Below, in pieces: positions 1,860 through 24,814 of a stretch of 24,814 bases of DNA. The notes under the pieces were generated by a model. That model made no database searches and was not told the origin of the DNA. It saw nothing but the letters and a program-made list of their open reading frames with translations. The stretch's first letter is position 1, and the number at the start of each line of letters is the position of its first letter. A program made the position numbers and the translations under genes. Location of the stretch: the IMG/VR virus record IMGVR_UViG_3300025671_000494, positions 1-24,814 of that record; one strand, 5' to 3'. The DNA is from a virus.

Positions 1860-2063
1860 ATGTCTAATGTTGTTGCGGTTATCCTAGCGATCCTAGCACC
1901 TAGCGGTGTCATTGTCACGTTGCTAGAGCGAACTAGGAAAGAAAATAATCGTGACCACAACAGTAACAGGGAACTGCTAGAACAAATTGATGTTAAGGTT
2001 GATGGCATCGACAACAGGCTAGATCACCACATTGAGTGGCATCTAGATAAGGAGACAAAATGA
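1860..2063 (+). CDS. Small membrane protein with C-terminal helix, possible holin partner
   Basis: This 67-residue protein has one N-terminal membrane segment (about residues 4-22, VVAVILAILAPSGVIVTLL). A charged turn follows, then a heptad-like helix (LLEQIDVKVDGIDNRLDHHI) ending in a WHLDKE tail. This layout resembles the small membrane proteins next to holins in actinobacteriophages (DUF2746-like), though the family is uncertain. No good ribosome-binding site is visible, so translation may be coupled to the gene upstream. The stop overlaps the next start in an ATGA (4 nt), linking it to the holin-like protein. An antiholin or second-holin role is inference. Confidence 0.7.
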   Translation: MSNVVAVILAILAPSGVIVTLLERTRKENNRDHNSNRELLEQIDVKVDGIDNRLDHHIEWHLDKETK

Positions 2064-12118: not shown

Positions 12119-13116
12119 TGGATGAGCAAGCATTACTGTTTTATCTACTTGGTCAAGGTGCAATGAACCCGATGTTGCAGGCACCACTTCAGGCTGGTGT
12201 CGGTCGCACCGACATTGCTCCTTTGTTGGACGACACGGGTTTGGGTGCTGTTACTGGCGGTATTAATCCTGCCGCTATTGAGCAGGCGATGTTGGCTGAG
12301 GTGGAGCGTCAGCGACGTTTGTATGAGGCTGAACAGAACTATCAGCGTGCTCAGATTGTTGCTGGTATTCCGCAAGCACCTACCGAGAAACAATATTTTG
12401 GTGCTTTAGGTGAACAGGCAGTCAACCTTTTAGGTTCTATGACTGATCCTACACTTCAAGCCGAATTTACACGACTTAGTGGTCTGGTTCAAAATGGTTC
12501 TTTAGATCCGCTTACAGCAAACTCACAGTTGGCGACTGTCGCTCCAGAAGAAGATGCTTACGATACGATCACAGTCAACAATTATTTTGAGGCGTTGGAA
12601 AAAGCGGGTGAAGATTTCCGAAAGGCCGAGTCGGATTATTCCGCAAAGTTTACTGCGGCTGTTCCGTTGCTGGAAACGTTAGGTTCTCAATACGATACTA
12701 AGACTGGACAGTGGAGTCACAGTTGGGAGCCGTTTAACCAGCAGGAAGCGATGCGTCAATACTACGATGATGCTGGTGTTCCTAACATGGCGTACATGCC
12801 TAGTCCATCAGAGAAGTTTGATTTTGATGTTAGTGAAGGTTGGAATCAATCTATTGAAGATATTCGGAAGTCGTTAGAAAAGAATATGATTGAAGAGCAA
12901 CCTGCTCCTTTGAACCCTGCTTTTACTGGTACTGAATCAGCGGCGACGATGGCAAGACGCTTACAGCAACAACACATAAATAAAAAAATTGCTAGGCAAC
13001 AAGACGTTAGAGATAGAACTTCTGAGGCTTTCAATACGTATCTGGCTTCGATGGGGGTAACTCCTTATAATGCTAGTTTGCAATCCATGTTGAACTTTGC
13101 TGTAGGTGGAGCATAA
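12118..13116 (+). CDS. Putative internal virion protein, middle
   Basis: This 332-residue protein has a hydrophobic N-terminal stretch (EQALLFYLLGQGAM) and then mostly helical, Gln/Ala-rich sequence (EVERQRRLYEAEQNYQRAQI). A short negatively charged region and a basic helical C-terminus (TMARRLQQQHINKKIARQQD) follow. No enzymatic motif was seen. Its position between the 395-residue and 1787-residue proteins matches the middle ejection protein of T7-like phages (gp15 role). It starts by a 1-nt overlap with the previous stop, with AGGAG about 10 nt upstream. Homology to gp15 was not shown; this is an inference from gene order. Confidence 0.55.
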   Translation: MDEQALLFYLLGQGAMNPMLQAPLQAGVGRTDIAPLLDDTGLGAVTGGINPAAIEQAMLAEVERQRRLYEAEQNYQRAQIVAGIPQAPTEKQYFGALGEQAVNLLGSMTDPTLQAEFTRLSGLVQNGSLDPLTANSQLATVAPEEDAYDTITVNNYFEALEKAGEDFRKAESDYSAKFTAAVPLLETLGSQYDTKTGQWSHSWEPFNQQEAMRQYYDDAGVPNMAYMPSPSEKFDFDVSEGWNQSIEDIRKSLEKNMIEEQPAPLNPAFTGTESAATMARRLQQQHINKKIARQQDVRDRTSEAFNTYLASMGVTPYNASLQSMLNFAVGGA

Positions 13117-13120
13117 AATA

Positions 13121-16100
13121 ATGGCAGTAATTCGTAGCCCGTTCTCTTCTGACGATAGCGACTGGACATTAGAGGATTATCTTAAATCAGGGGGGCAGGG
13201 GCAAACCCCTACCCCAGTCAATACTGGTAATGTTCTTCCGACGCAAGAGAACGTACAGAACCGTTCCCCCATAGAGTTGGCTGTGTTCGATGCGTTGCTG
13301 GAACGCAACGAAGTTGATCCAGACAAATGGGGAGAAACAATCAGCAACGTTTACGGTTTGGCTGAGCAACGCAAAGATACTCCGTGGTATCTGAAACCTT
13401 TGTCTTTGGCTTTGGAAGGGATGTCGGCAGGTTCAAGAGCGGCTTCGTCTGGAGTTGTAACTGGAATTGGTGCGGTCGAACAGTTATCTAGGGCTATTTC
13501 TAGCGGTCAACTGGGTGAATCTAGGAATCCTTTGGATGTTGCACGAGCAGTATCTAGCCAGCCTGCCACTATTGCCAGCAAGTTTGTTGCAGTTGAAAAT
13601 CCTGACTTGCAAGAAAAAATTAAACAAGGGTACATGCCTAGTTGGGGCGAACTGTACGGTGACCCAACGTTCCATGTGACTGTACCTAACATTCGTGACA
13701 AGGTTGACACTCCAGATATTCCTGTAATCGGTTGGCTTTCACGCGCAGGCTTGTGGACGCTAGATGCCAGTATCGAACTTGCCGCACAGTCCGCTGTTGA
13801 TCCTTTAAGTTACGTGTCGTTTGGTGCAGGCAAGTGGGCAGGTCAGGCTGGACGTGCCGCTCTTGCGTCACGTCTGCTACAGAAAGACGCGGTTCAAGTC
13901 CTAGAGAACGCAGTTCAGCAAGGTCTTATTAAAGCGATTGACTATGGCAAGATTTATCGCCTAGGAGAGTTCGGTTTGGACAGGGCGCAACGTCGCCTGT
14001 TGGCGAACGCTGGCATCATTGAACATGCTGGTATCTCTTTGAACTTTGGTCAGCGTTCCACAATCCGAGGCACAGGTTTCTTGTCTAACACGATTGGTCG
14101 TGGAGCATCTTACGCTAGGTATGGTGGTAGTCGTCTGCTGAGGCAGAACGACAAGATCAACGAGTTCTTTACCACTAAGAGTTTGCGGAGTTTGCGTTCG
14201 CTTGCCAGCAACAAGGCGACCAGTGCTGAGGCCAAGTCGATGATCGCACACTACAATGCGAGTCTTGCGGCTAAAGCCGAGTTCGGCAAGATGCAACAGA
14301 TCATAGGTTCACGGTACTATGATTTGATTCACCGTCTATCTAGGTCTGAGTTCGATGGTGACCTGCATTTGGCGATTGAGACTGGTACTGTCGGAAACAT
14401 TTTTGATCCTACTGCTAGAGCCTTGGCCGAGGAAACACAGTTGGCGTTTGCTGAGATCCGCCAAATGTATAACGACGCTGTGGAACGGATCACCAAAGAG
14501 TACGGTTTAACTCCAGAGTTTGTTTACAACATCAACGATATTGACAACTATTTTTCTCACACGATTACTCGTGATGCGGCTGACTGGTTGAAGAAGAATG
14601 GCGATGACAGCCCGTTCAAGTCAATGTTTAACGAAATGTTTGAGGAGTCTATTGCTGACATGAAGCGTGGCGTAGGTGCTTTGCGTGCACGTAAACTTGT
14701 TAAGGATGAAAAGTTTTTTGGTGTTGAACTGAAGGAAGGCACGATTGAGGAAATCAACCGTGTGTTCCGTGAGCAGGCTGATGTGGATTTCGACTGGTTT
14801 AACACCGATGCTTCAACTGTGTTGTCTAGTTACATTGACACGGCGGCAAGAAACTTCCGCCGTATCAGATATATGGACAAGTTGTTTGAGCATGGTGACG
14901 ATGTTATCCGTGTCATTCTGCCCAAGTACGTGAACAACAAACAGGCTATGAACAGTGTGCAGTCTACGTTGAAAAGTTTGAACTCTAAACGTAACAAACT
15001 AGTTCGCATGATTCAAGACTCTGCACGCAACACTGTTAAGGGTAATCAAAGAACTTTAGCCAAGGAAATGCAGGGCACCAAGAATCGTTTGGCTAAGGCT
15101 GTGTCTAATGGAACTGCAATGTTGGAGGACACGGAAGAGTCTATTGCTCAGATGACTAAAGAGTTGGATGCGATAAAGAAGCATATTGACACAACTAAGA
15201 AGCAGTTGGCAAAGAACGCTGACGCTTCCAAGATGGAGTATGAGACTGCTATCGCTCCGTTAGAGATGCGGCTAGAAGCGTTGAAGAAATCTATTGCTGA
15301 TGGCAATGCGAAGCGTGAAGCGGCACGTCAGGCGTTGGTTGAACAGCATGTTCAAATGTTCCCTAACAGGGCTAAGCGTCCAACCGATATGAAGGTGTTG
15401 GCTGATGAGATCGTTGGCGCAAAACGTAAACGTTTTGAGCAACGATTGAAGTTATTGGAAACTAGACAGGCTAAGGCTGAAAGCAAGAAGGCTGGAGCGG
15501 CCACACGTAGGGTCGATGCTGAGGCTGAGATGGCTGTGGTTGAAGAGTCGCTAGTTGCTACGAATGAAACAAAGTATTTGTTGCGGGAAATGGTTGACAT
15601 TGACTATGACCCTGAAGTGTTCCCTGATGGAATGATGTATACATCTAAGGCGCATTTGGAAAGTCAGCCTGCTAACGACACGGTGTTTTTCTACGATACT
15701 TTCGATGAGATCCCTGACCCCGTGGCGTTGCCTGCTCCAGACATTCAGCAAACCTACGATCTAGGATTGCGTCTAGAGGACGTTCAGGAGATCATTGTTG
15801 GTTTGCCTTCCAGTATTGCTGACAACATTGTGGCCGCTACTGGTGACGATGCGTTGGGTGAATACATCGTGCGGGAAACTTCACGTCTGTTGCGTTCCCC
15901 TTTGGGAACGGACGTTGACCCTAGGGTGCCTGAAGATTTGCATGGTTTGATTGCTACGATCGAAGGATGGGGGCGTTCTGCTGAAACAAGCCCTGAAGTG
16001 GTAGAGGTTTACTTGAATGAGTTGGCGGATCAGGTCAACACGGTTCTGTCTGCTAGGTCGTTGGAACCGTTTGATCCTGAGGATGCTTACGCTATTGTTG

Positions 16101-18484
16101 ATGACTCTATCAGGGCGGCGGCGCAAGCCGCCAACCCTGAGGGCGCGCGTGTGACTGTTGTTCTGCCTGACATAGAGTACGGCATGGGTAACAAGTTGCT
16201 TGTTTCTAGCACAGAAGCACAGAACCTTTTCAGGGGAACCACTGACGATGTGTTCGCTGGTATTGAGATGGGTTCTTCTAAGTGGGATGCTGTTGTTCCT
16301 GAGAGCGGCATTGAGCCTACTGATCCTTTTGTTCGTGAAGCACAGATCCAGCAGGAGTTTGAGAATCTGTTGAACCAGCGTCAGCGGGTTCAGGCAACTA
16401 TGGATAGGGCTGACACGGATATTATGGCCGCTGATGAGGTAATCGCTCAGGTTGGTCGTGACGTTACGGGTGCTAGGTCGGGGCTTACTAGGTCTGAACG
16501 GGGCGTACAACGCAATCTAGAGGCGTTTGAGCCTACTCCAGAGTTGAAGGCGCAATACAAAGAACGTTCCGTTTTGAACAAGAAGGTTGCGGCAGAGAAA
16601 CGCAAGTTCGATGCCGCTGTGGAGAATGATCCTCTGGTCGAATATATTGCTGACACGGAGAAGCAGGTCACCACTATTGCTACCAACATGGACACCGCTA
16701 ATGCGCTGTCCGTAGATCAGAACACTTGGCTCACTACTGTTGGTGCAGAGTATGAGGACAAGATTAAACGTCTAGATGATTTGTTGAAGAGCAAACCGAC
16801 TAAGGGTACTAGCGAGCAGGCCACAAAGGATTGGTTCGATCAGGTTGAAAGCATCACTCAACAGATTAACGATCCTAATATTTTGGACAACAAGCAACGT
16901 GCGGCGTATGACAGGGTGTTCAAACAGTTGCATGGTCTAGAAGCAGACCTAGCAATTTTGGATGGTGAGATAACAGTGAACGAAGGGATTTTCGCACAGT
17001 TGTCTGCCGCCCATTTGCAGAAGATGGAGAAAGATATTCTTCAGGGTTGGACTGAACTGCAAGGTTTGGGTGTTCAGGTTCCGAAGGAAATCATGGACGA
17101 GTGGATGTCTGGCATCCGCAAGGTGATGGATCGTGACGGCTGGAGGGATACCTTAAAATACTATCGTGCTTACACTAGGTTCTTCAAGGCGTGGGCTATC
17201 GCAACCCCAGGATTTACAGTGCGTAACGCTATGACTGCGGCGTTCAACAACGCTGTGGCAGACGTAGGTTTTAAGAACACTCAGATCGGCATTGAGTTCG
17301 CTGGCAAACTGGCAAGGATCAGAACTAGCAACACCGAGAAAGGTGGTTTAACTTACGCTTTGGATTGGGCTGAACGCAAGTACGGCAAGAAGATGCGTGA
17401 CGATCTGGAGCAAGCGTATGAAGCGGTGCTGATTTCTGGTGGCGGTCAAGCCATCGACGAAGTGTTGCCTTTGCTTAAACGTGTCAAGCCGCAACCTGTG
17501 GTTGGCGGCAAGGCTAAACGAAACTGGGATTGGACTTACAACAATGCGCTCACACGCGGACAGCAACGTGTCAACGAAACAGTTGAAATTGCGGCACGTA
17601 TGGGTATGGCTCTAGATGCTGTGCAAAAAGGTTGGGACATGAACGCTAATGCGGCACGTATCCGACGCTACCATTTCGACTACTCTGACCTTAGCGGGTT
17701 CGACAGGACGATGAAGCAGATCATTCCGTTCTGGACTTTTGCTAGCCGCAACGTCCAGTTGCAGATGGTGAACATGATTACACGGCCAGCAATGTACCGT
17801 GCCTATGAACGTGTTGTTGATGGCGGCGGAGACTACGACACCATTCTTCCAGAATGGATGTCGAACCGCAACCCGATCATGCTAGGGGCAGACAAGGTTC
17901 TGATGCCAGACCTGCCGATGGTTGGTTTGCAGGAACAAATCAACCAGTTAGGTGGCGGCGGTCTTTCTAGGGTTGCCGCCCAATCTAACCCTCTGATCCG
18001 TGCGGGTATCGAACTGTTATCTGGCGAGTCCGCCATGTTCGGTAGCAACTTGCGCCGACCTGTTGAAGATCCTGTCGGCATCACCGATCGTCCAGCGCAA
18101 GCGTTACAAAACATCACTAGGTTGTGGCGAGGCGAAGAACCTGAGTTCAACAAATACTGGCAGGAACTTCTACCTAGTTTGCTACCTCCGTTGTCACAGT
18201 TGCAACGCTACTTGCAACCGACGTTGGGTGCTGTCGGGCTGGAAGGTGCACAAGATTTTGTCGGTGGCCCCGAGCGGTACAAGTCGCGTGACTTCCTGAC
18301 AACGTTCGCCAACTATCTAGGTATCCCGTACCGTGATCTAACCGATGAAGAACTAAGGAAAGCGGTAGACTCTACGGTGTATCAAATCGAAAAGATTATG
18401 CGTGAAGCAAAGGCGGAGTACCAAACTCCAGAAGAAATCATTAAAGCCGCAAGAGAAGAAATGAAAGAAGAGTTAGGGTTATGA
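13121..18484 (+). CDS. Giant internal virion/ejection protein
   Basis: This 1787-residue protein is the largest in the window and the best candidate for the gp16-like ejected protein. The first 550 residues are mixed alpha/beta with no recognised enzyme. Coiled coils run at about 610-745 (SLNSKRNKLVRMIQD onward) and 768-810, and a second helical zone at about 1070-1300. A well-defined C-terminal region begins near 1345 (YYRAYTRFFKAWAIATPGFT, then VRNAMTAAFNNA). The basic, aromatic IIPFWTFASRNVQLQMVNMI is near 1535. Both resemble stretches in large internal proteins of other podoviruses. An in-frame GTG at 13106 is possible, but ATG at 13121 with GGTGGAG upstream is preferred. The lysozyme domain of T7 gp16 was not found. 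The stop overlaps the endolysin start (ATGA). Confidence 0.65.
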   Translation: MAVIRSPFSSDDSDWTLEDYLKSGGQGQTPTPVNTGNVLPTQENVQNRSPIELAVFDALLERNEVDPDKWGETISNVYGLAEQRKDTPWYLKPLSLALEGMSAGSRAASSGVVTGIGAVEQLSRAISSGQLGESRNPLDVARAVSSQPATIASKFVAVENPDLQEKIKQGYMPSWGELYGDPTFHVTVPNIRDKVDTPDIPVIGWLSRAGLWTLDASIELAAQSAVDPLSYVSFGAGKWAGQAGRAALASRLLQKDAVQVLENAVQQGLIKAIDYGKIYRLGEFGLDRAQRRLLANAGIIEHAGISLNFGQRSTIRGTGFLSNTIGRGASYARYGGSRLLRQNDKINEFFTTKSLRSLRSLASNKATSAEAKSMIAHYNASLAAKAEFGKMQQIIGSRYYDLIHRLSRSEFDGDLHLAIETGTVGNIFDPTARALAEETQLAFAEIRQMYNDAVERITKEYGLTPEFVYNINDIDNYFSHTITRDAADWLKKNGDDSPFKSMFNEMFEESIADMKRGVGALRARKLVKDEKFFGVELKEGTIEEINRVFREQADVDFDWFNTDASTVLSSYIDTAARNFRRIRYMDKLFEHGDDVIRVILPKYVNNKQAMNSVQSTLKSLNSKRNKLVRMIQDSARNTVKGNQRTLAKEMQGTKNRLAKAVSNGTAMLEDTEESIAQMTKELDAIKKHIDTTKKQLAKNADASKMEYETAIAPLEMRLEALKKSIADGNAKREAARQALVEQHVQMFPNRAKRPTDMKVLADEIVGAKRKRFEQRLKLLETRQAKAESKKAGAATRRVDAEAEMAVVEESLVATNETKYLLREMVDIDYDPEVFPDGMMYTSKAHLESQPANDTVFFYDTFDEIPDPVALPAPDIQQTYDLGLRLEDVQEIIVGLPSSIADNIVAATGDDALGEYIVRETSRLLRSPLGTDVDPRVPEDLHGLIATIEGWGRSAETSPEVVEVYLNELADQVNTVLSARSLEPFDPEDAYAIVDDSIRAAAQAANPEGARVTVVLPDIEYGMGNKLLVSSTEAQNLFRGTTDDVFAGIEMGSSKWDAVVPESGIEPTDPFVREAQIQQEFENLLNQRQRVQATMDRADTDIMAADEVIAQVGRDVTGARSGLTRSERGVQRNLEAFEPTPELKAQYKERSVLNKKVAAEKRKFDAAVENDPLVEYIADTEKQVTTIATNMDTANALSVDQNTWLTTVGAEYEDKIKRLDDLLKSKPTKGTSEQATKDWFDQVESITQQINDPNILDNKQRAAYDRVFKQLHGLEADLAILDGEITVNEGIFAQLSAAHLQKMEKDILQGWTELQGLGVQVPKEIMDEWMSGIRKVMDRDGWRDTLKYYRAYTRFFKAWAIATPGFTVRNAMTAAFNNAVADVGFKNTQIGIEFAGKLARIRTSNTEKGGLTYALDWAERKYGKKMRDDLEQAYEAVLISGGGQAIDEVLPLLKRVKPQPVVGGKAKRNWDWTYNNALTRGQQRVNETVEIAARMGMALDAVQKGWDMNANAARIRRYHFDYSDLSGFDRTMKQIIPFWTFASRNVQLQMVNMITRPAMYRAYERVVDGGGDYDTILPEWMSNRNPIMLGADKVLMPDLPMVGLQEQINQLGGGGLSRVAAQSNPLIRAGIELLSGESAMFGSNLRRPVEDPVGITDRPAQALQNITRLWRGEEPEFNKYWQELLPSLLPPLSQLQRYLQPTLGAVGLEGAQDFVGGPERYKSRDFLTTFANYLGIPYRDLTDEELRKAVDSTVYQIEKIMREAKAEYQTPEEIIKAAREEMKEELGL
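14840..14863 (+). other. Intragenic hairpin, 10 bp with one bulge
   Basis: ACGGCGG, a bulged C and AAG pair with CTT and CCGCCGT around an AAA loop, inside the giant protein gene. Confidence 0.65.
16110..16140 (+). other. Intragenic hairpin, 12 bp with GCAA tetraloop
   Basis: TCAGGG pairs with CCCTGA and, past a small internal loop, GGCGGC pairs with GCCGCC around GCAA, a GNRA-type tetraloop that is very stable in RNA. It lies in the giant protein gene. Confidence 0.7.
17488..17509 (+). other. Intragenic hairpin, 9 bp with one bulge
   Basis: GCCGCAACC pairs with GGTTG-CGGC (one bulged G) around a TGT loop, in the giant protein gene. Confidence 0.6.
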
Positions 18485-19188
18485 GAAAGTATGTAGGGTT
18501 CGACGGGTACGCAACGAAGAAGCGTGCAGGAACCGAACAGTTCATCCGAGAGTTCGTGAAAGCCACAGGCGGGGCGTTCTTTAATAATGGTTCCTATGGA
18601 CGGAGAGCGATCCGTGGCGGCTCTAAGCCTAGTATTCACGGGACGGGTAGGGCTTGTGACTTGAGTTACCGTGGGTCACCACACTCAGGGTGTGGTGACC
18701 GCAAGGTGGCAGAGAAGTGGATCAACTGGCTAGCCGATAACGGTGACCGTCTGATGTTGACGATGGTGGTGGACTATCAGCCCAAGCCTTTCGGCAGGGC
18801 GTGGCGTTGTGACCGTGGCTGGAAGAAGTATCTGGTTAAGACGGTGACTGGTGGCGGTGCATCATGGTCAGATTGGATTCATGTGGAGGTTGATCCTTCG
18901 GTGGCTGATGATGCAGAGTTCTTTAAGCAGGCGTTTGCCGAGTTGAAGGGAGCGGACACAACCCCGCCTAAGAGGAACTTTGTTCCGTTCCGTGGCAAGC
19001 CGATTCGTCGTGGCGAGAAAGACAAGGAACTTGTCAAGAAGATCCAGAAAGTTGTGGGCGCTAAGGTTGACGGGATCTTTGGTCGTAAGACCGAGGCGGC
19101 ACTGATGCGTTGGCAAGGCAAGAACGGTTTGCAGGCTGATGGTTGGATTGGTGCACAGACTTGGCCTGTGATCTCTAGATACTTCTAG
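18481..19188 (+). CDS. Endolysin: M15-type peptidase plus peptidoglycan-binding domain
   Basis: This 235-residue lysin should cut peptide cross-links in the host cell wall at the end of infection, after the holin opens the membrane. The N-terminal domain has SIHGTGRACDLSY with His53 and Asp60, and later DWIHVEV with His134. These are the spacing and residues of the zinc site in the M15 (VanY/L-Ala-D-Glu endopeptidase) family. The C-terminal domain (about 170-235) has the PG_binding_1 pattern: KELVKKIQKVVGAKVDGIFG, then KTEAALMRWQGKNGL and WIGAQTW. No signal peptide is present, so a holin is needed. It overlaps the giant protein gene by 4 nt. Its stop interleaves with the stop of the opposing gene. 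A perfect 11-bp hairpin lies in the catalytic region. Confidence 0.88.
   Translation: MRKYVGFDGYATKKRAGTEQFIREFVKATGGAFFNNGSYGRRAIRGGSKPSIHGTGRACDLSYRGSPHSGCGDRKVAEKWINWLADNGDRLMLTMVVDYQPKPFGRAWRCDRGWKKYLVKTVTGGGASWSDWIHVEVDPSVADDAEFFKQAFAELKGADTTPPKRNFVPFRGKPIRRGEKDKELVKKIQKVVGAKVDGIFGRKTEAALMRWQGKNGLQADGWIGAQTWPVISRYF
18674..18700 (+). other. Perfect intragenic hairpin, 11 bp
   Basis: GGTCACCACAC pairs with GTGTGGTGACC around a TCAGG loop, in endolysin codons 65-74. It shares the arm CACCACAC/GTGTGGTG with the capsid terminator. There is no T-tract. Confidence 0.8.
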
Positions 19189-19569: not shown

Positions 19570-20075
19570 CCTAGTTCCAATCTGAAAGTGTCGTTCAGTA
19601 ACATTCCTGCGATGACGGCGTAGCCTACGATGTCCTCGTAGGTGTCTCGCAATGGTTCGTTAGCGGCATCGGTGCCACGTTCAGTCAGGTTCTTCAGCCG
19701 TGCGATCTTGTCGGACATGCGTACCGCTACACCTAGTAGTCCGAACGATGTGATGTTGCCATGCCCATAGTCGTGTTGCTTGCGTGCTAATAGCATCCCC
19801 ATGTGTTTGCTGTTCCATGTGCCGTCGTCGTGCATTTTGCGTGCGGCAATGTTGCCGCACGCCATCAGCATGTACGCTAGGTGACGTTGCCACTGTTCGG
19901 TAACGCCTTCAAACATTTCGTGCACTAGGTCAGCGATCCATTCAGACCTGATGGATAGTTCGTTTACTAGGTCGGCACTCTTATCGTAGTCTAGGATCGG
20001 GATGTTACTTTCGATCACATTCAGTTCGTTGCGTGCGGCTTCTTGCCATGTGGTTGGTTCAGTTTTTGTTATCAT
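19566..20075 (-). CDS. Nmad1/MazG-like nucleotide-associated protein
   Basis: This 169-residue, all-helical protein has the pattern KQHDYGHGNI (99-108), RMSDKIARLKNL (119-130) and NEPLRDTYEDIVGYAVIA (139-156). It resembles the nucleotide-modification-associated domain 1 group (DUF1599), which is related to the MazG/dUTPase-like all-alpha NTP pyrophosphatases. The acidic and basic residues in these three blocks would bind metal and nucleotide. In phages such proteins are proposed to cleave or hand over (d)NTPs, sometimes for base modification; no modification enzyme is visible here. TAAGGA precedes the ATG, and the start overlaps the sigma-like gene by 17 nt. Family assignment is fairly good; substrate unknown. 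Confidence 0.7.
   Translation of the reverse strand: MITKTEPTTWQEAARNELNVIESNIPILDYDKSADLVNELSIRSEWIADLVHEMFEGVTEQWQRHLAYMLMACGNIAARKMHDDGTWNSKHMGMLLARKQHDYGHGNITSFGLLGVAVRMSDKIARLKNLTERGTDAANEPLRDTYEDIVGYAVIAGMLLNDTFRLELG
19839..19862 (-). other. Perfect intragenic hairpin, 10 bp
   Basis: GCGTGCGGCA pairs with TGCCGCACGC around ATGT. The 24 bases are almost one continuous palindrome. It is inside the Nmad-like gene. Confidence 0.8.
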
Positions 20076-20442
20076 ATTTTTTCCTTATGGTGGGATCTAT
20101 TGTCAGTATTTCTTCCAGCATTTTCAAAGCCTTTTGGACATGATACCATGTGTGCGACTTGGATGAGTAGCCCATTATCTCTGTGATTCTGTTGTACGAA
20201 TACTGGTCGAAGAACCTGAGTTTCAGCAGAGTGCGGTGAGGTTCTGGCACTTGATCTAAGCAGGACTCTACGATGTCAATGATGTTCCAATCTGCTTCTT
20301 CTGGAGTGGGGTATTCACCCCACTCCATCATCCTTTCTGTTTCGGATGTCGGCTTGTGCGGGTGTAGTTCTCCTGTGCGTAGCACACGCTCTTGTATGTC
20401 TTTGGCTATTTCTTTTCCCACGGTTAGACTAGAAGGGGTCAT
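20059..20442 (-). CDS. Sigma-region-4-like regulator
   Basis: This 127-residue protein has a polar N-terminal half and a C-terminal helix-turn-helix of the sigma-factor region 4 type. DQVPEPHRTLLKLRFFDQYS (63-82) is the usual 'lead helix, then LxLRxxxxxS' pattern, followed by YNRITEIMGYSSKSHTWYHVQKALKMLEEIL (83-113). Region 4 contacts the -35 element, so it could redirect host RNA polymerase to late genes or act as a small transcription factor. No region 2 is seen, so it is not a full sigma factor. It might recognise the TAGAACG motif of the late module; this is speculation. It overlaps both neighbours (14 and 17 nt). A perfect 11-bp hairpin covers residues near 40-48. Confidence 0.65.
   Translation of the reverse strand: MTPSSLTVGKEIAKDIQERVLRTGELHPHKPTSETERMMEWGEYPTPEEADWNIIDIVESCLDQVPEPHRTLLKLRFFDQYSYNRITEIMGYSSKSHTWYHVQKALKMLEEILTIDPTIRKKYDNKN
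20302..20327 (-). other. Perfect intragenic hairpin, 11 bp
   Basis: TGGAGTGGGGT pairs with ACCCCACTCCA around ATTC. It sits in the sigma-like gene and is among the longest perfect stems in the window. Confidence 0.8.
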
Positions 20443-20881
20443 TGCTCGGGAAGTTTTCTATTGGTAGTGACCAGTAAGGTTTATTGTTATCCTCGAACCT
20501 AGACACTGTTCCATGAGCGTGACACAAAGCACCCCACACTGCGATGCGTTCACATGTGTACCGCTTCTTAGCGGAGTCCCACACCCACAGGTATGTGTCT
20601 CCGAAAGTGTCCCACAAATTCAGGATCTCCAGTTTCTCAAACTTCAGTTTCAACGTAGGGTTCTTAGCCCTAGATGAAACACCCATCACCTCATAGGCTC
20701 CGTTGGGTAGCAGGAAGTCTGGTGCTTGTCTAAAGAACACGGGGAGTTTAGCGACGGAGAAATCTGGTCTGTCTATGCCTAGTCGGTGGGCGTGCGGATA
20801 ACTTTCTAGGAACGCTGTCTCCGCTGTGCTACCCATCTTTTGGTAGCGTGCACCCCACGATTGTTGATGGAACTCTGTCAC
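20429..20881 (-). CDS. PD-(D/E)XK-like protein, unknown
   Basis: This 150-residue protein follows the layout of a conserved actinobacteriophage family: an E near 21 in STAETAF, GIDRPDF, then APDFLLPNGAYEVMG (53-67), LKLKFEKLEILNLW (77-90) and YLWVWDSAKKR (97-107). PD54-55 followed by E64 looks like a PD-(D/E)XK nuclease core. The usual Lys two residues after the Glu is Met66 here; Lys78 or Lys80 might replace it. Activity is therefore uncertain. It overlaps the RusA gene by 4 nt and may act with it in DNA recombination or packaging. This is inference from context. Confidence 0.6.
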   Translation of the reverse strand: MTEFHQQSWGARYQKMGSTAETAFLESYPHAHRLGIDRPDFSVAKLPVFFRQAPDFLLPNGAYEVMGVSSRAKNPTLKLKFEKLEILNLWDTFGDTYLWVWDSAKKRYTCERIAVWGALCHAHGTVSRFEDNNKPYWSLPIENFPSNDPF

Positions 20882-21246
20882 TGTTTTTCTCCTCGGATCA
20901 CCATGACCGCCTTGTCATCAGGGTATGCGACACCGTTCAGTGCGTCGCATACCAGTTTCAGATAGTTGTCGGTGTCACCACGTAACTTGGATGTGTGGCT
21001 AGGATCTAAAGGTGTGATAGTTATTTCTGTTGATGTCGGTGTGAACACTGCTTCCAGCATCACAGGTGTCTCGTAGTATGGTGCACGTTCCTTGCGCCAC
21101 TGGTCAGCAATAAACTCTTCCGCCATCAGGGTGCGTTCAGGTGTGAACACACGTCCCCTGCGACCTAGGCGTGGTCTACCTTTCACCACTGGGCGTTGCT
21201 CCACTTTTATGGTGAAAGGTTTCTTGGGGGATTTGCGTCTAGCCAT
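20878..21246 (-). CDS. rusA: RusA-family Holliday junction resolvase
   Basis: This 122-residue protein has the RusA signature. KGRPR (22-26) and TPERT (35-39) are followed by GDTDNYLKLVCDALNG (90-105) and YPDD (108-111). The aspartates Asp91, Asp93, Asp101 and Asp110/111 match the metal-binding set of the dimeric resolvase. It cuts four-way DNA junctions made during recombination-dependent replication so that linear DNA can be packaged. Length is typical. AAGAG precedes the ATG. It follows the transglycosylase gene after 13 nt and overlaps the next gene by 4 nt. An inverted repeat with 11-bp arms (21178-21188 and 21210-21220) covers its N-terminal codons. Confidence 0.88.
   Translation of the reverse strand: MARRKSPKKPFTIKVEQRPVVKGRPRLGRRGRVFTPERTLMAEEFIADQWRKERAPYYETPVMLEAVFTPTSTEITITPLDPSHTSKLRGDTDNYLKLVCDALNGVAYPDDKAVMVIRGEKQ
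21178..21220 (-). repeat. Inverted repeat, 11-bp arms
   Basis: ACCTTTCACCA (21178-21188) and TGGTGAAAGGT (21210-21220) are perfect inverted copies around a 21-nt loop. It is in the first third of the rusA coding region. Confidence 0.6.
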
Positions 21247-21259
21247 AACTCTTATTGTA

Positions 21260-21643
21260 TCATAGACCCCAAGGATCTAGACCAGCCCTAGTTACTAGGT
21301 GGCTAGCGAAACAGATGTTTCGCCAACCGATCAGCAAGTCACCTGTGGTTGTGACCCGACATCTCTCTACACCAGCCCATCTATCTGGATGCAACTTGAC
21401 ATCTTCTAGGTGGATAGAGTTGATCTGCAGTAGCCCGAACGAACCCTTGTGCGGATCATCCTCGTTCACTTGCCATGCTTCGCATCGTGATTCACGCCAC
21501 ATGATAGGCGAAAACACCTCGGGATCTAGACCGTGCATTTGCATTGTTGCGTTCCAATTATCACACCGTCCTTCCTCCGAGTCAATCCACATGGATGTAA
21601 TGCCTAGGTAAATCATCATAAATATTTTCAGTATCATCATCAT
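21260..21643 (-). CDS. Secreted lytic transglycosylase-like protein
   Basis: This 127-residue protein has an N-terminal hydrophobic segment (MMMILKIFMMIYLGITSMW), a signal peptide or signal-anchor. After it come the blocks of an SLT/lysozyme-like domain: IMWRESRC with catalytic Glu51, GSFGLLQIN (67-75) and a WRNICFASHLVTRAG helix (107-121). Four cysteines (27, 54, 95, 111) fit a disulfide-bonded, exported protein. It should cleave glycan strands outside the membrane. It overlaps the primase gene by 4 nt (ATGA), so it is made with the replication genes, not with the endolysin. Possible roles are a second lysis enzyme, a signal-arrest-release type lysin, or wall opening during infection. Confidence 0.75.
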   Translation of the reverse strand: MMMILKIFMMIYLGITSMWIDSEEGRCDNWNATMQMHGLDPEVFSPIMWRESRCEAWQVNEDDPHKGSFGLLQINSIHLEDVKLHPDRWAGVERCRVTTTGDLLIGWRNICFASHLVTRAGLDPWGL

Positions 21644-22533
21644 TGGTATGCCCTCACAATCATCTTGTCGATCTGTTCGTCACCGTCAGGTCTGTCGTAG
21701 AACTTGCCCCAACGTCGGTCAGCGTCACGCACCACCATCGTTGCCGCCGATGGCGGCATACCTGACTCGGCACAGATGTGTGCCAGTCGTGCCAACGTGG
21801 TGGATCTGTCACGTCCTTCCAGTGCACCGTCACGCCAGATCACATAACCCAACGGTGACACGGTACGTAGCCCTTCGGCTAGGTCTGTTGAAGGATCGAC
21901 AACATCCCATGATGCTACTTGTCTGGTGGTTGGAGGTTGATACATGGAAGCCAGCCTATCTATGAGTTCAGGGTCAGCGAACTGTACGGTGTCTAGGAAT
22001 GTTTGTAGTGGTACTGGTGTGTCGTTGTCATCTATGATGACACGACGCTCAGGTGTGCTGTCTATGCCACCCACGTAAGGCAACCGTACATAGTTGCCGT
22101 ACTTGTGTGCGCTTACGTCTGTCTGCTTAGGGTTGACTTCGATGGGTCGCATGTCTGCCACTTGGTGTGCGGCTAGTTGCATGTCACGCATTGACTGAGC
22201 GGACACAGGTTGGTCAGCGAACACCCAAATGTGGTAGCCCTTGGAGCGGGAACGCTCTACGTATGCGGGGATGCCTGCGACCTGCAACGTTGACTGTAGT
22301 AGTCGTGTTGCTTCTAGGTCATTCGTGTCGATGTCGGTACACCCCCAAGCGCAAACAACACTTCGGGCAGGTGTGGGAACGGCAGGGTAAATCCCGATAC
22401 CTGACCTGCCTGCTAGATGATCTGCCCAATGGTCGTCGGTTAGTTTCTCTTTGACGCATCGCCCTTCGTCGTGACCCCATACGTCGCCACGTCCTCTGAA
22501 GATACGTTTGAATTGTTCTAATGTTTGGTGCAT
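21640..22533 (-). CDS. AEP-type primase/primase-polymerase
   Basis: This 297-residue protein has the three motifs of archaeo-eukaryotic primases. CAWGCTDIDTND (61-72) holds the metal-binding Asp67 and Asp69. SRSKGYHIWVF (95-105) is the nucleotide-binding sxH block with His101. NYVRLPYVGG (147-156) matches the downstream motif, with a preceding Lys-rich strand. The C-terminal third (about 220-297) is helical and may be a primase-C-type domain. It would make primers for replication next to the helicase. GAGGAGA precedes the ATG, 9 nt after the helicase stop. No DNA polymerase gene is in the window. The family call is good; polymerase activity is unknown. Confidence 0.8.
   Translation of the reverse strand: MHQTLEQFKRIFRGRGDVWGHDEGRCVKEKLTDDHWADHLAGRSGIGIYPAVPTPARSVVCAWGCTDIDTNDLEATRLLQSTLQVAGIPAYVERSRSKGYHIWVFADQPVSAQSMRDMQLAAHQVADMRPIEVNPKQTDVSAHKYGNYVRLPYVGGIDSTPERRVIIDDNDTPVPLQTFLDTVQFADPELIDRLASMYQPPTTRQVASWDVVDPSTDLAEGLRTVSPLGYVIWRDGALEGRDRSTTLARLAHICAESGMPPSAATMVVRDADRRWGKFYDRPDGDEQIDKMIVRAYQ
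22021..22046 (-). other. Intragenic hairpin, 11 bp with one bulge
   Basis: On the plus strand GTCGT, a bulged T and GTCATC pair with GATGAC and ACGAC around a TAT loop, in the primase gene. Confidence 0.65.
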
Positions 22534-22542
22534 TGTTTCTCC

Positions 22543-23610
22543 TCACCAGTCGTCACCCAATACTGTTTGGGCATCATAGTCGTCGTCGTTAGTTTCGGTC
22601 GTTGTTACACCGAAACCGTTGAGTCTCAGCAGTCTACCTGTGCCCTGCTCAATCTCGAAGTCAATGTCGTCTAGCAGGTGTGCATCTTGACGCTTGCACT
22701 TCACAAGGTTCACAGTCACAGTGTTCTCATGCAGTTGTTGTTCGTAACGCAACTGATCTAGCCGTTCCAACATACGTTCGTTAGCGGTAGACTTGTTCAG
22801 TTTCTCTACGATGTCACGCATCTGTCGGTCGATCTCAAACTTCTTACGTCGTACACCGATGATGTGTGACGCTTGTTGTTCTCCACCGTAAGCACCCGAA
22901 GAGATCGTCTGCTTCTGACCATCCGAACCTGCGGTTCGTGATGACTGGTGCAGTACGATCAACGGAATGTTATGACGCTTACCGAACGCTTTGATTGTGT
23001 TCGCTTTAGCAGGCACAGTCTCGTCACCCGATAGCAACTCTAGATAGTCGAACACCATCAACGCTGGTGTACCTAGGTGCCTATCCACCTCAATCATTGC
23101 TTTCTCCATGTCACTCAGTGACATGAACTGGTCGAACACTGCAAGGTTAGGGAACCATTCTCGTGCTGTAGATTCCAACAGTTCAATCCCTTCGGGATCA
23201 CCGTCGGAGATCATCTGCTCCAACCTGCGCCCTTCCACCTTGTGAACTAGGCACGCCAACTTGATTAGCGTCAAGGTGCGTGGCTCATCAGGACAGAAGT
23301 AGACAACGTTCTTGTCACGGTTAGCGACAAGGATCTGTAGCAAGAACAGTGTCTTACCTGAGTGGGAGAACCCGTTGACTAGGCACATCTCTGATGGTGC
23401 AACACCACGTACCTGTTCGTCTAGGTCAGGGAACCCGAAGTAAATACGTTCGTTAGGATGTTGCGCCCAATGCACGTATTCGTCAATGGAATCCGATAAC
23501 GGTTTGTAAAGTGCAGGTCTAGCAAGTGTGGCCGTAGACGAATCAGGCGGGGAGATGTTCTCTCCCCGCCCTAACTTCGCCCACCGCTCTTCTAGAGTGG
23601 CGGTGTCCAT
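22543..23610 (-). CDS. DnaB/RecA-fold ATPase, replicative helicase
   Basis: This 355-residue protein has Walker A GFSHSGKT (80-87), a CPDEP block after the second strand (106-110), Walker B LMVFDYLE (184-191, Asp188) and IVLHQSSR (218-225). Those match the RecA-fold core of DnaB-type helicases, where H/Q near 221-222 senses the nucleotide. A helical RRKK-containing part follows the core. The N-terminal helical domain of full-length DnaB is absent; only about 55 residues precede the core, so it may be a minimal helicase or a loader-like ATPase. It begins 5 nt after the gene upstream and is followed by the primase. A 10-bp perfect hairpin sits 40 nt into the gene. Confidence 0.8.
   Translation of the reverse strand: MDTATLEERWAKLGRGENISPPDSSTATLARPALYKPLSDSIDEYVHWAQHPNERIYFGFPDLDEQVRGVAPSEMCLVNGFSHSGKTLFLLQILVANRDKNVVYFCPDEPRTLTLIKLACLVHKVEGRRLEQMISDGDPEGIELLESTAREWFPNLAVFDQFMSLSDMEKAMIEVDRHLGTPALMVFDYLELLSGDETVPAKANTIKAFGKRHNIPLIVLHQSSRTAGSDGQKQTISSGAYGGEQQASHIIGVRRKKFEIDRQMRDIVEKLNKSTANERMLERLDQLRYEQQLHENTVTVNLVKCKRQDAHLLDDIDFEIEQGTGRLLRLNGFGVTTTETNDDDYDAQTVLGDDW
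23107..23125 (-). other. Perfect intragenic hairpin, 8 bp
   Basis: CATGTCAC pairs with GTGACATG around TCA, inside the helicase gene. Confidence 0.6.
23546..23570 (-). other. Perfect intragenic hairpin/dyad, 10 bp
   Basis: GGCGGGGAGA pairs with TCTCCCCGCC around a 5-nt loop, 40-65 nt downstream of the helicase start. It could be an RNA hairpin limiting translation or a dyad operator. Confidence 0.75.
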
Positions 23611-24314: not shown

Positions 24315-24343
24315 ATCATATCAGATGTAACAACGTCGGTCAG
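24315..24343 (-). promoter_or_regulatory. Sigma70-type promoter for the replication operon leader
   Basis: Read on the minus strand, CTGACC (24343-24338) matches the -35 consensus at four of six positions. After a 17-nt spacer comes TATGAT (24320-24315), one base from TATAAT, with TG one base upstream (extended -10). The predicted start is at about 24308, on the ATG of the 32-codon ORF. It overlaps the stop codon of the nuclease gene and would drive the operon down to 19185. Confidence 0.55.
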
Positions 24344-24814
24344 CAAGACCCTTTGCAGATCGACCAGTAGTTACACCAAGTCGCTGAACAGAGGGTACCT
24401 TGGTCGTTCATCGGCCAAGCACTGGTGATGCCAGACTGAAGGGCGTTGTTCACGATGACCTGTGTCTGACGGTTCAACCAACGGTAGTCCGACTCGGTGC
24501 GTGTGATGTCTACCACCTGACCCTCTGGCTTTTCTTTCCGAATCATCACACCGTACTTGAAAGTCTGTGTGTCGCTAGTGGAGTGACCGTTACGCTTAGC
24601 GAACTGACAGTAGACCGTAGGCTGGTACGCTTTGTTCTGTTTCTCGTTGGCATAGTATTTTCTGCCAGCAGTTTTCCAATCCCAAATGGTACCATTAGGA
24701 TCTATGTAGTCCATAGTACCTTCGTACCATATTTCGTAACCATTACTAGCCAATAGACCTGAGGGATAACGGAACCCTAGTTCCGTTGTCCCACCCCATT
24801 CTACATCTATTGCT
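24340..24814 (-). CDS. Cas4/RecB-like exonuclease (partial, 5' end outside window)
   Basis: The reading frame is open to the window edge, so the true start lies upstream; 157 residues are visible. A PD-(D/E)XK core is seen: YEGTMDYID, then TIWDWKT, where the final Asp-x-Lys is the catalytic pair, and a Gln-containing helix (KAYQPTVYCQF) like the QxxxY motif of RecB-type nucleases. The last 20 residues have four cysteines (C-x4-C-x5-C-x3-C) around NYWSIC, like the iron-sulfur cysteines of Cas4/AddB nucleases; such enzymes usually take one ligand from the N-terminus as well. It would resect DNA ends for recombination or degrade host DNA. It is upstream of the replication operon on the same strand. 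Confidence 0.75.
   Translation of the reverse strand, partial: AIDVEWGGTTELGFRYPSGLLASNGYEIWYEGTMDYIDPNGTIWDWKTAGRKYYANEKQNKAYQPTVYCQFAKRNGHSTSDTQTFKYGVMIRKEKPEGQVVDITRTESDYRWLNRQTQVIVNNALQSGITSAWPMNDQGTLCSATWCNYWSICKGSC

Follow-up and report, generated by a model that had tools for sequence, protein, structure and literature searches.

A predicted exported SLT-type wall enzyme encoded with the replication genes of an uncultivated phage, and its exchange with Rpf genes in related phages

What a wall-cutting enzyme might do among the replication genes of a phage, apart from its endolysin, is the question raised by a small gene lying between the primase and rusA genes of a 24,814-base virus record, the whole of which was analysed and is called here the window. 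Terminase, portal, scaffold, major head and tail genes and the endolysin gene are found on its plus strand, and the replication operon on the minus strand, opposite the structural genes. The features of the replication side are as follows:

21260..21643, minus strand: gene for the SLT/lysozyme-fold enzyme, predicted to be exported, 127 aa, ATG start (ORF, SLT profile, fold model, dN/dS)
21640..22533, minus strand: archaeo-eukaryotic-type primase
21640..21643, minus strand: ATGA overlap of the primase stop and the SLT gene start
20878..21246, minus strand: RusA-like Holliday junction resolvase
22543..23610, minus strand: DnaB-like helicase, in the same replication operon as the SLT gene
24340..24813, minus strand: exonuclease-like protein of the replication operon, open at the window end
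20059..20442, minus strand: sigma-70 region 4-like regulator of the replication operon

Two relatives, L003 with a protein 88% identical and L007 with one 52-57% identical, likewise have the ATGA shared by the primase and the SLT gene, consistent with the coupling to the primase claimed in the original prediction, and rusA comes after the SLT gene, with its start at 21246. Strand, spacing and overlap suggest that helicase, primase, SLT gene and RusA form one transcription unit, and early expression of the SLT gene is suggested solely by its position in this operon. A promoter scan of the operon gave no excess of sites over shuffled sequences (3 found, 5.2 expected), one site falling within the SLT gene. 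The sigma-70 region 4-like protein (20059-20442) is a candidate early-to-late switch; its homologue in L057 shares one ORF with a DUF1599-like part.

The small wall enzyme with four cysteines and Glu51, which had been read from the letters of the sequence, was confirmed by the ORF, by the SLT matches of its family and by a predicted lysozyme fold. The window protein matched the SLT Pfam model (PF01464) at E 5e-4 and 20.0 bits, just under the curated cut-off of 21.3, and among the 35 rows of the family alignment 32 matched SLT at E <=0.01, 31 matched SLT_3 and 13 matched C-type lysozyme (PF00062). The predicted active site comprises:

21491..21493, minus strand: Glu51, predicted catalytic acid, invariant in 35/35 rows
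21416..21448, minus strand: SLT motif KGSFGLLQINS, residues 66-76

Six residues (Glu51, Ser52, Gly70, Leu71, Gln73 and Asn75), which make up a Glu-Ser pair and a G-L-x-Q-x-N motif, were invariant in 36 rows. When a profile of 35 rows was compared with solved proteins, the best matches were C-type lysozymes and EtgA (from 8e-11), and half of the family shares the Asp found at the Asp52 position of C-type lysozymes. Unlike these lysozymes, the window protein, as the other half of its family, has a Ser (Ser68) at that position, and thus does not have the Glu35/Asp52 pair; this residue would suit a transglycosylase rather than a lysozyme. The residue aligned by profile at this position was strictly Asp (n = 18) or Ser (n = 17) in the 35 rows, as if the family mixed lysozyme-type and transglycosylase-type active sites.

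A first structure model rested on six sequences and was discarded for its low quality (pLDDT 62); the second AlphaFold model (pLDDT 89.5, pTM 0.78) had a lysozyme fold. Foldseek found no match for the second model in the PDB at E <=0.001, and the fold assignment is based on realignment of the model (Slt70, Z 10.8 over 86 residues with rmsd 1.9; MltE, Z ~10; C-type lysozymes, Z ~9.7), together with viral matches and the profile search, not on plain Foldseek. Motif and fold point to a lytic transglycosylase of lysozyme fold, in which Glu51 would cut glycan strands. The dN/dS of the SLT gene was 0.17 against L003, its nearest non-identical relative, indicating purifying selection; the same comparison gave 0.13 for rusA and 0.32 for the sigma-like gene, both from the operon that holds the SLT gene. 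The value of 0.17 and the invariant catalytic motif argue against a degenerate or non-catalytic wall-binding remnant, which the Pfam score just under the cut-off would favour, and which we consider highly improbable.

Three further features of the protein bear on its location:

21584..21643, minus strand: hydrophobic N-terminus, codons 1-20, signal peptide or anchor (Kyte-Doolittle)
21482..21565, minus strand: Cys27-Cys54, predicted first disulfide pair
21311..21361, minus strand: Cys95-Cys111, predicted second disulfide pair

The export signal that had been claimed is consistent with a 13-residue Kyte-Doolittle peak of 2.19 at the N-terminus of the window protein, and peaks of at least 1.6 were found in 36/39 non-redundant family members, compared with 12% of 733 control ORFs. 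Its cysteines stand at residues 27, 54, 95 and 111, and the number of cysteines between Cys27 and Trp125 was even in 34/36 rows (four in 29, two in 5). A hydrophobic N-terminus combined with paired cysteines is the pattern expected of an exported, disulfide-bonded protein. Both traits argue against a virion-associated entry enzyme, carried into the particle, as does the strand of the window gene, which is not that of the structural genes. Phages of the same morphology frequently have an internal virion protein with an SLT domain, and in seven relatives the gene lies near head genes, which counts towards such a role; on balance we regard it as very unlikely.

When viral contigs were scanned with six query sequences, 390 relatives came up and the best 80 were retained, and a search of 50,697 annotated phage records with the window protein gave one match. 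The placement of the gene was followed in a set of 44 phage-group records, composed of the window, 40 of 44 contigs identified through primase or helicase, and L057, L071 and L080, which entered through the SLT gene itself and are therefore biased. The 16.8-kb contig of L002, with an identical SLT gene, was left out, as were L025, L026 and L046, on whose short contigs no SLT gene match was found in the DNA searched. All are contigs of uncultivated viruses, many of them incomplete, with inferred hosts.

The SLT gene was present in 16/44 records, always as a single copy, lying on the replication strand in nine; in the other seven it is on the structural strand, immediately ahead of the terminase. 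The slot between primase and rusA holds it in the window, L003 and L007; in L057 it comes after a rusA-like gene (so named by eye) with an ATGA overlap, in L008 it stands at the end of the replication operon, and in L042, L044, L071 and L080 it precedes a nuclease. In a tree of the 16 proteins a single, weakly supported branch (41/26) separated the replication-strand from the terminase-side copies, so that repeated moves of the gene between strands are not demonstrated. The window-type protein sits on a long branch, and given the long branches that part window-type from terminase-side proteins, the function of the two may differ. No SLT gene was found in 28/44 records, and 18/44 had neither SLT gene nor Rpf, many of these being fragments. 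In seven loci with neither gene (L006, L018, L028, L029, L030, L036 and L045), the replication-strand proteins with a strongly hydrophobic N-terminus were all short, indicating that the exported-enzyme trait is accessory.

Some further relatives lie near SSB, ThyX or WhiB genes, and the WhiB genes adjoining SLT relatives in L079 and L080 suggest actinobacterial hosts. A genome scan found four bacterial relatives, one of them titled Acidimicrobiia MAG, with the match confined to the core. The host of the window phage is probably an actinobacterium. A cassette recurs on contigs 4-14 kb long, L077, L110 and L124 among them, in which tail-type genes, a membrane protein, an endolysin homologue and a predicted exported SLT are followed by nuclease-type genes; one cassette-type SLT had no match among the 50,697 phage records.

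Operon position and export signal would also accommodate, in no specific way, superinfection exclusion, with the wall altered against injection by further phages, or remodelling that keeps the wall plastic. The terminase-side copies in relatives speak against both, and none of the four window proteins compared with PADLOC models matched (0/4), leaving this explanation rather unlikely in our judgement.

An M15 endolysin and a holin had been expected on the other strand, where two features were found:

18481..19188, plus strand: endolysin with peptidoglycan-binding domain (PHROG), convergent with the replication operon
1860..2063, plus strand: 67-aa membrane protein, sole holin candidate in the window, matching only a PHROG of unknown function

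The endolysin therefore stood, by its PHROG match and peptidoglycan-binding domain, and its M15 class received no Pfam confirmation; the holin was not confirmed. Strong membrane segments were detected in only two of the 28 listed window proteins, the 67-aa protein and the SLT protein, and those of terminase and portal were weak. No holin was identified in the window, which is incomplete: the stretch ahead of the terminase, in which terminase-side relatives have small membrane proteins, lies outside it. A 68-aa membrane protein of L154 was rejected as a holin, its matches occurring in 10/44 records, with six of the seven terminase-side records among them and none of window type. GH25 was rejected as a general partner of the SLT gene, being present in 2/44 records only. 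A GH25 muramidase (L008:11697-12725) takes the endolysin position and replaces the window-type endolysin in L008, and L006, which has neither SLT gene nor Rpf, carries a GH25 gene. A 1792-aa protein (13106-18484) is probably an internal virion protein and has no PHROG match; its counterparts adjoin the endolysin in several relatives. In one terminase-side record the genes run terminase, SLT gene, VanY-type peptidase and then a protein with weak likeness to r1t holins. Of the 78 loci L056-L133, 29 have a gene homologous to the window endolysin immediately upstream of the SLT gene, on the same strand.

We hold with moderate confidence that the SLT protein is an early-made, exported lytic transglycosylase, harmless until the membrane is de-energised and then an aid to the endolysin, a reading favoured because Kayvirus Tgl, the nearest studied case, is reported to work so. 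According to PMC7150955, Tgl is exported, active in zymograms and transcribed by the host RNA polymerase like early genes, and it lyses S. aureus only if nisin permeabilises the membrane. The window protein resembles it as an exported lysozyme-fold transglycosylase encoded apart from the main endolysin, Tgl being transcribed like early genes in that same source. It differs in that Tgl, encoded three genes away from lysK, has 230 aa (PMC7150955), while the window protein has 127 aa, four cysteines and a place in the replication operon; moreover, Rpf replaces the SLT gene within the window phage group. The likeness to Tgl is drawn from the described properties of the two proteins. Lys44 of Oenococcus phage fOg44, as described in PMC7150955, is a secreted endolysin that is ineffective until the membrane is de-energised; Lys44 is the main endolysin of its phage, and the window has an endolysin gene separate from the SLT gene.

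In the mechanism that we propose, the SLT gene would be read in one unit with helicase, primase and RusA; the protein would cross the membrane via the host export system, as its N-terminus suggests, its two disulfides would form outside the cell, as the paired cysteines suggest, and Glu51 would cut glycan strands, as motif and fold suggest. Most likely the enzyme would accumulate in the wall from early infection and be restrained, or the harm it does be mended, as long as the membrane stays energised; de-energisation by a holin would then let it act with the cytoplasmic endolysin. This role of helper to the endolysin is favoured by the motif, the fold and the conserved Glu, by the export signal and cysteine pairs across relatives, by purifying selection and the conserved ATGA start, and by the terminase-side placement in 7/16 records, the VanY and holin-like neighbours in one record and the upstream endolysin homologue in 29/78 loci. 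Against it stand the replication strand in 9/16 records, which is unexpected for a purely late job, the non-universal presence of the SLT gene (28/44 without it), the lack of a holin in the incomplete window, the long branches between window-type and terminase-side proteins, and the Rpf replacement and fusion, which point to a growth-linked role. Holin-independent lysis, as put forward in the original prediction, is disfavoured by the need of Tgl for a permeabilising agent (PMC7150955) and by the structural-strand copies in seven relatives, one beside the VanY-type peptidase and weakly holin-like protein. The early exported glycan-cutter had also been called unusual: its position with the replication genes, apart from the endolysin, was upheld, and its rarity is tempered by the Kayvirus Tgl precedent (PMC7150955) and by 390 viral relatives.

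The Rpf genes extend the findings beyond the original prediction, which had foreseen neither their exchange with the SLT gene nor their fusion to it. An Rpf-domain match above the Pfam cut-off was detected in 10/44 phage-group records, and SLT gene and Rpf never occurred together in any of the 44. The chance of zero overlap was 0.005 for the 44 records, and 0.012 for the 41 that remain without L057, L071 and L080 (SLT gene in 13/41, Rpf in 10/41), both values treating as independent records that are not. The Rpf gene lies upstream of the helicase, on the helicase strand, in eight of the ten; in G009 and G010 it lies near contig ends without terminal repeats. The Rpf frames in the loci examined open with a hydrophobic stretch. 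The features are:

L010:4349-4918, L016:4229-4792 and eight further records: phage Rpf-domain genes, most in the replication operon
L098:6446-7549 and L062:7335-8300: phage fusion proteins, each with an Rpf and an SLT domain

After the Rpf gene in L010 and L016 come a small gene and then a nuclease; after the SLT gene in L044 and L042 come a gene homologous to that small one (E 9e-6 to 6e-9, with the similarity mostly in the N-terminal part) and then a nuclease, and the nucleases of L010 and L044 are 43% identical. By gene order and homology, the SLT and Rpf genes thus share one position ahead of the replication nuclease, in two records each. Mostly in other phages, Rpf was above the cut-off in 9/31 SLT-domain records; both domains are held by one protein in the two that were tested with Pfam, and in the other seven they lie in frames of matching length. 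Five further SLT-domain records gave a weak Rpf match, and in all five the gene that follows falls into a single protein cluster, of which the one member tested matches Rpf weakly. The L098 fusion adjoins a ThyX gene. That two different lysozyme-fold wall enzymes swap at one locus and join elsewhere supports, from the sequence side, a shared wall function.

These patterns bring in an Rpf-like explanation, in which the early exported enzyme would trim the wall so that a dormant or slow actinobacterial host resumes or keeps growing, supporting phage replication; we judge it unlikely, albeit credible. The replacement of the SLT gene by Rpf in 10/44 records with both in none, the position upstream of the helicase in 8/10, the shared slot in L044/L042 and L010/L016 and the in-frame Rpf and SLT domains in 9/31 records of other phages all favour it, together with the finding that, of six host rpf genes, four rose when phage WC1 infected Rhodococcus, a rise which the authors suggest the phage may drive to prevent dormancy (PMC10986025). 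Like actinobacterial Rpf, the window protein is a small lysozyme-fold wall enzyme with a predicted export signal; unlike it, the protein matches SLT and gave no match to the Rpf Pfam model (PF06737) at E <=1. Terminase-side placement in seven relatives also fits lysis better, and the zero overlap may come from shared ancestry. Phages use such motifs for wall cutting elsewhere too: according to PMC1796659, mycobacteriophage tape measure proteins have Rpf-like and hydrolase motifs, one of which aids infection of stationary cells, but there the motifs lie inside a virion tail protein. No early exported phage Rpf was found in a literature search limited to open-licence papers; by term search, PMC6802176, PMC10202952, PMC7771536 and PMC10611076 make no mention of transglycosylase, Rpf or resuscitation, nor PMC12090717 of phage or virus.

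As a tentative and bolder proposal, to which we give the same low probability as to the Rpf-like explanation, the replication-operon wall enzyme of actinobacterial phages, whether SLT-type, true Rpf or fused, would be a resuscitation factor that, made as infection begins, rouses dormant or slow hosts and perhaps neighbouring cells into growth that can sustain the replication of the phage. The exchange of SLT and Rpf at one locus makes a direct test of host wake-up by a phage possible with two small proteins. Should these phages share a strategy of exporting an Rpf/SLT-class enzyme early, this would tie lysis to wall growth and host dormancy among phages whose bacterial hosts are poorly cultured.
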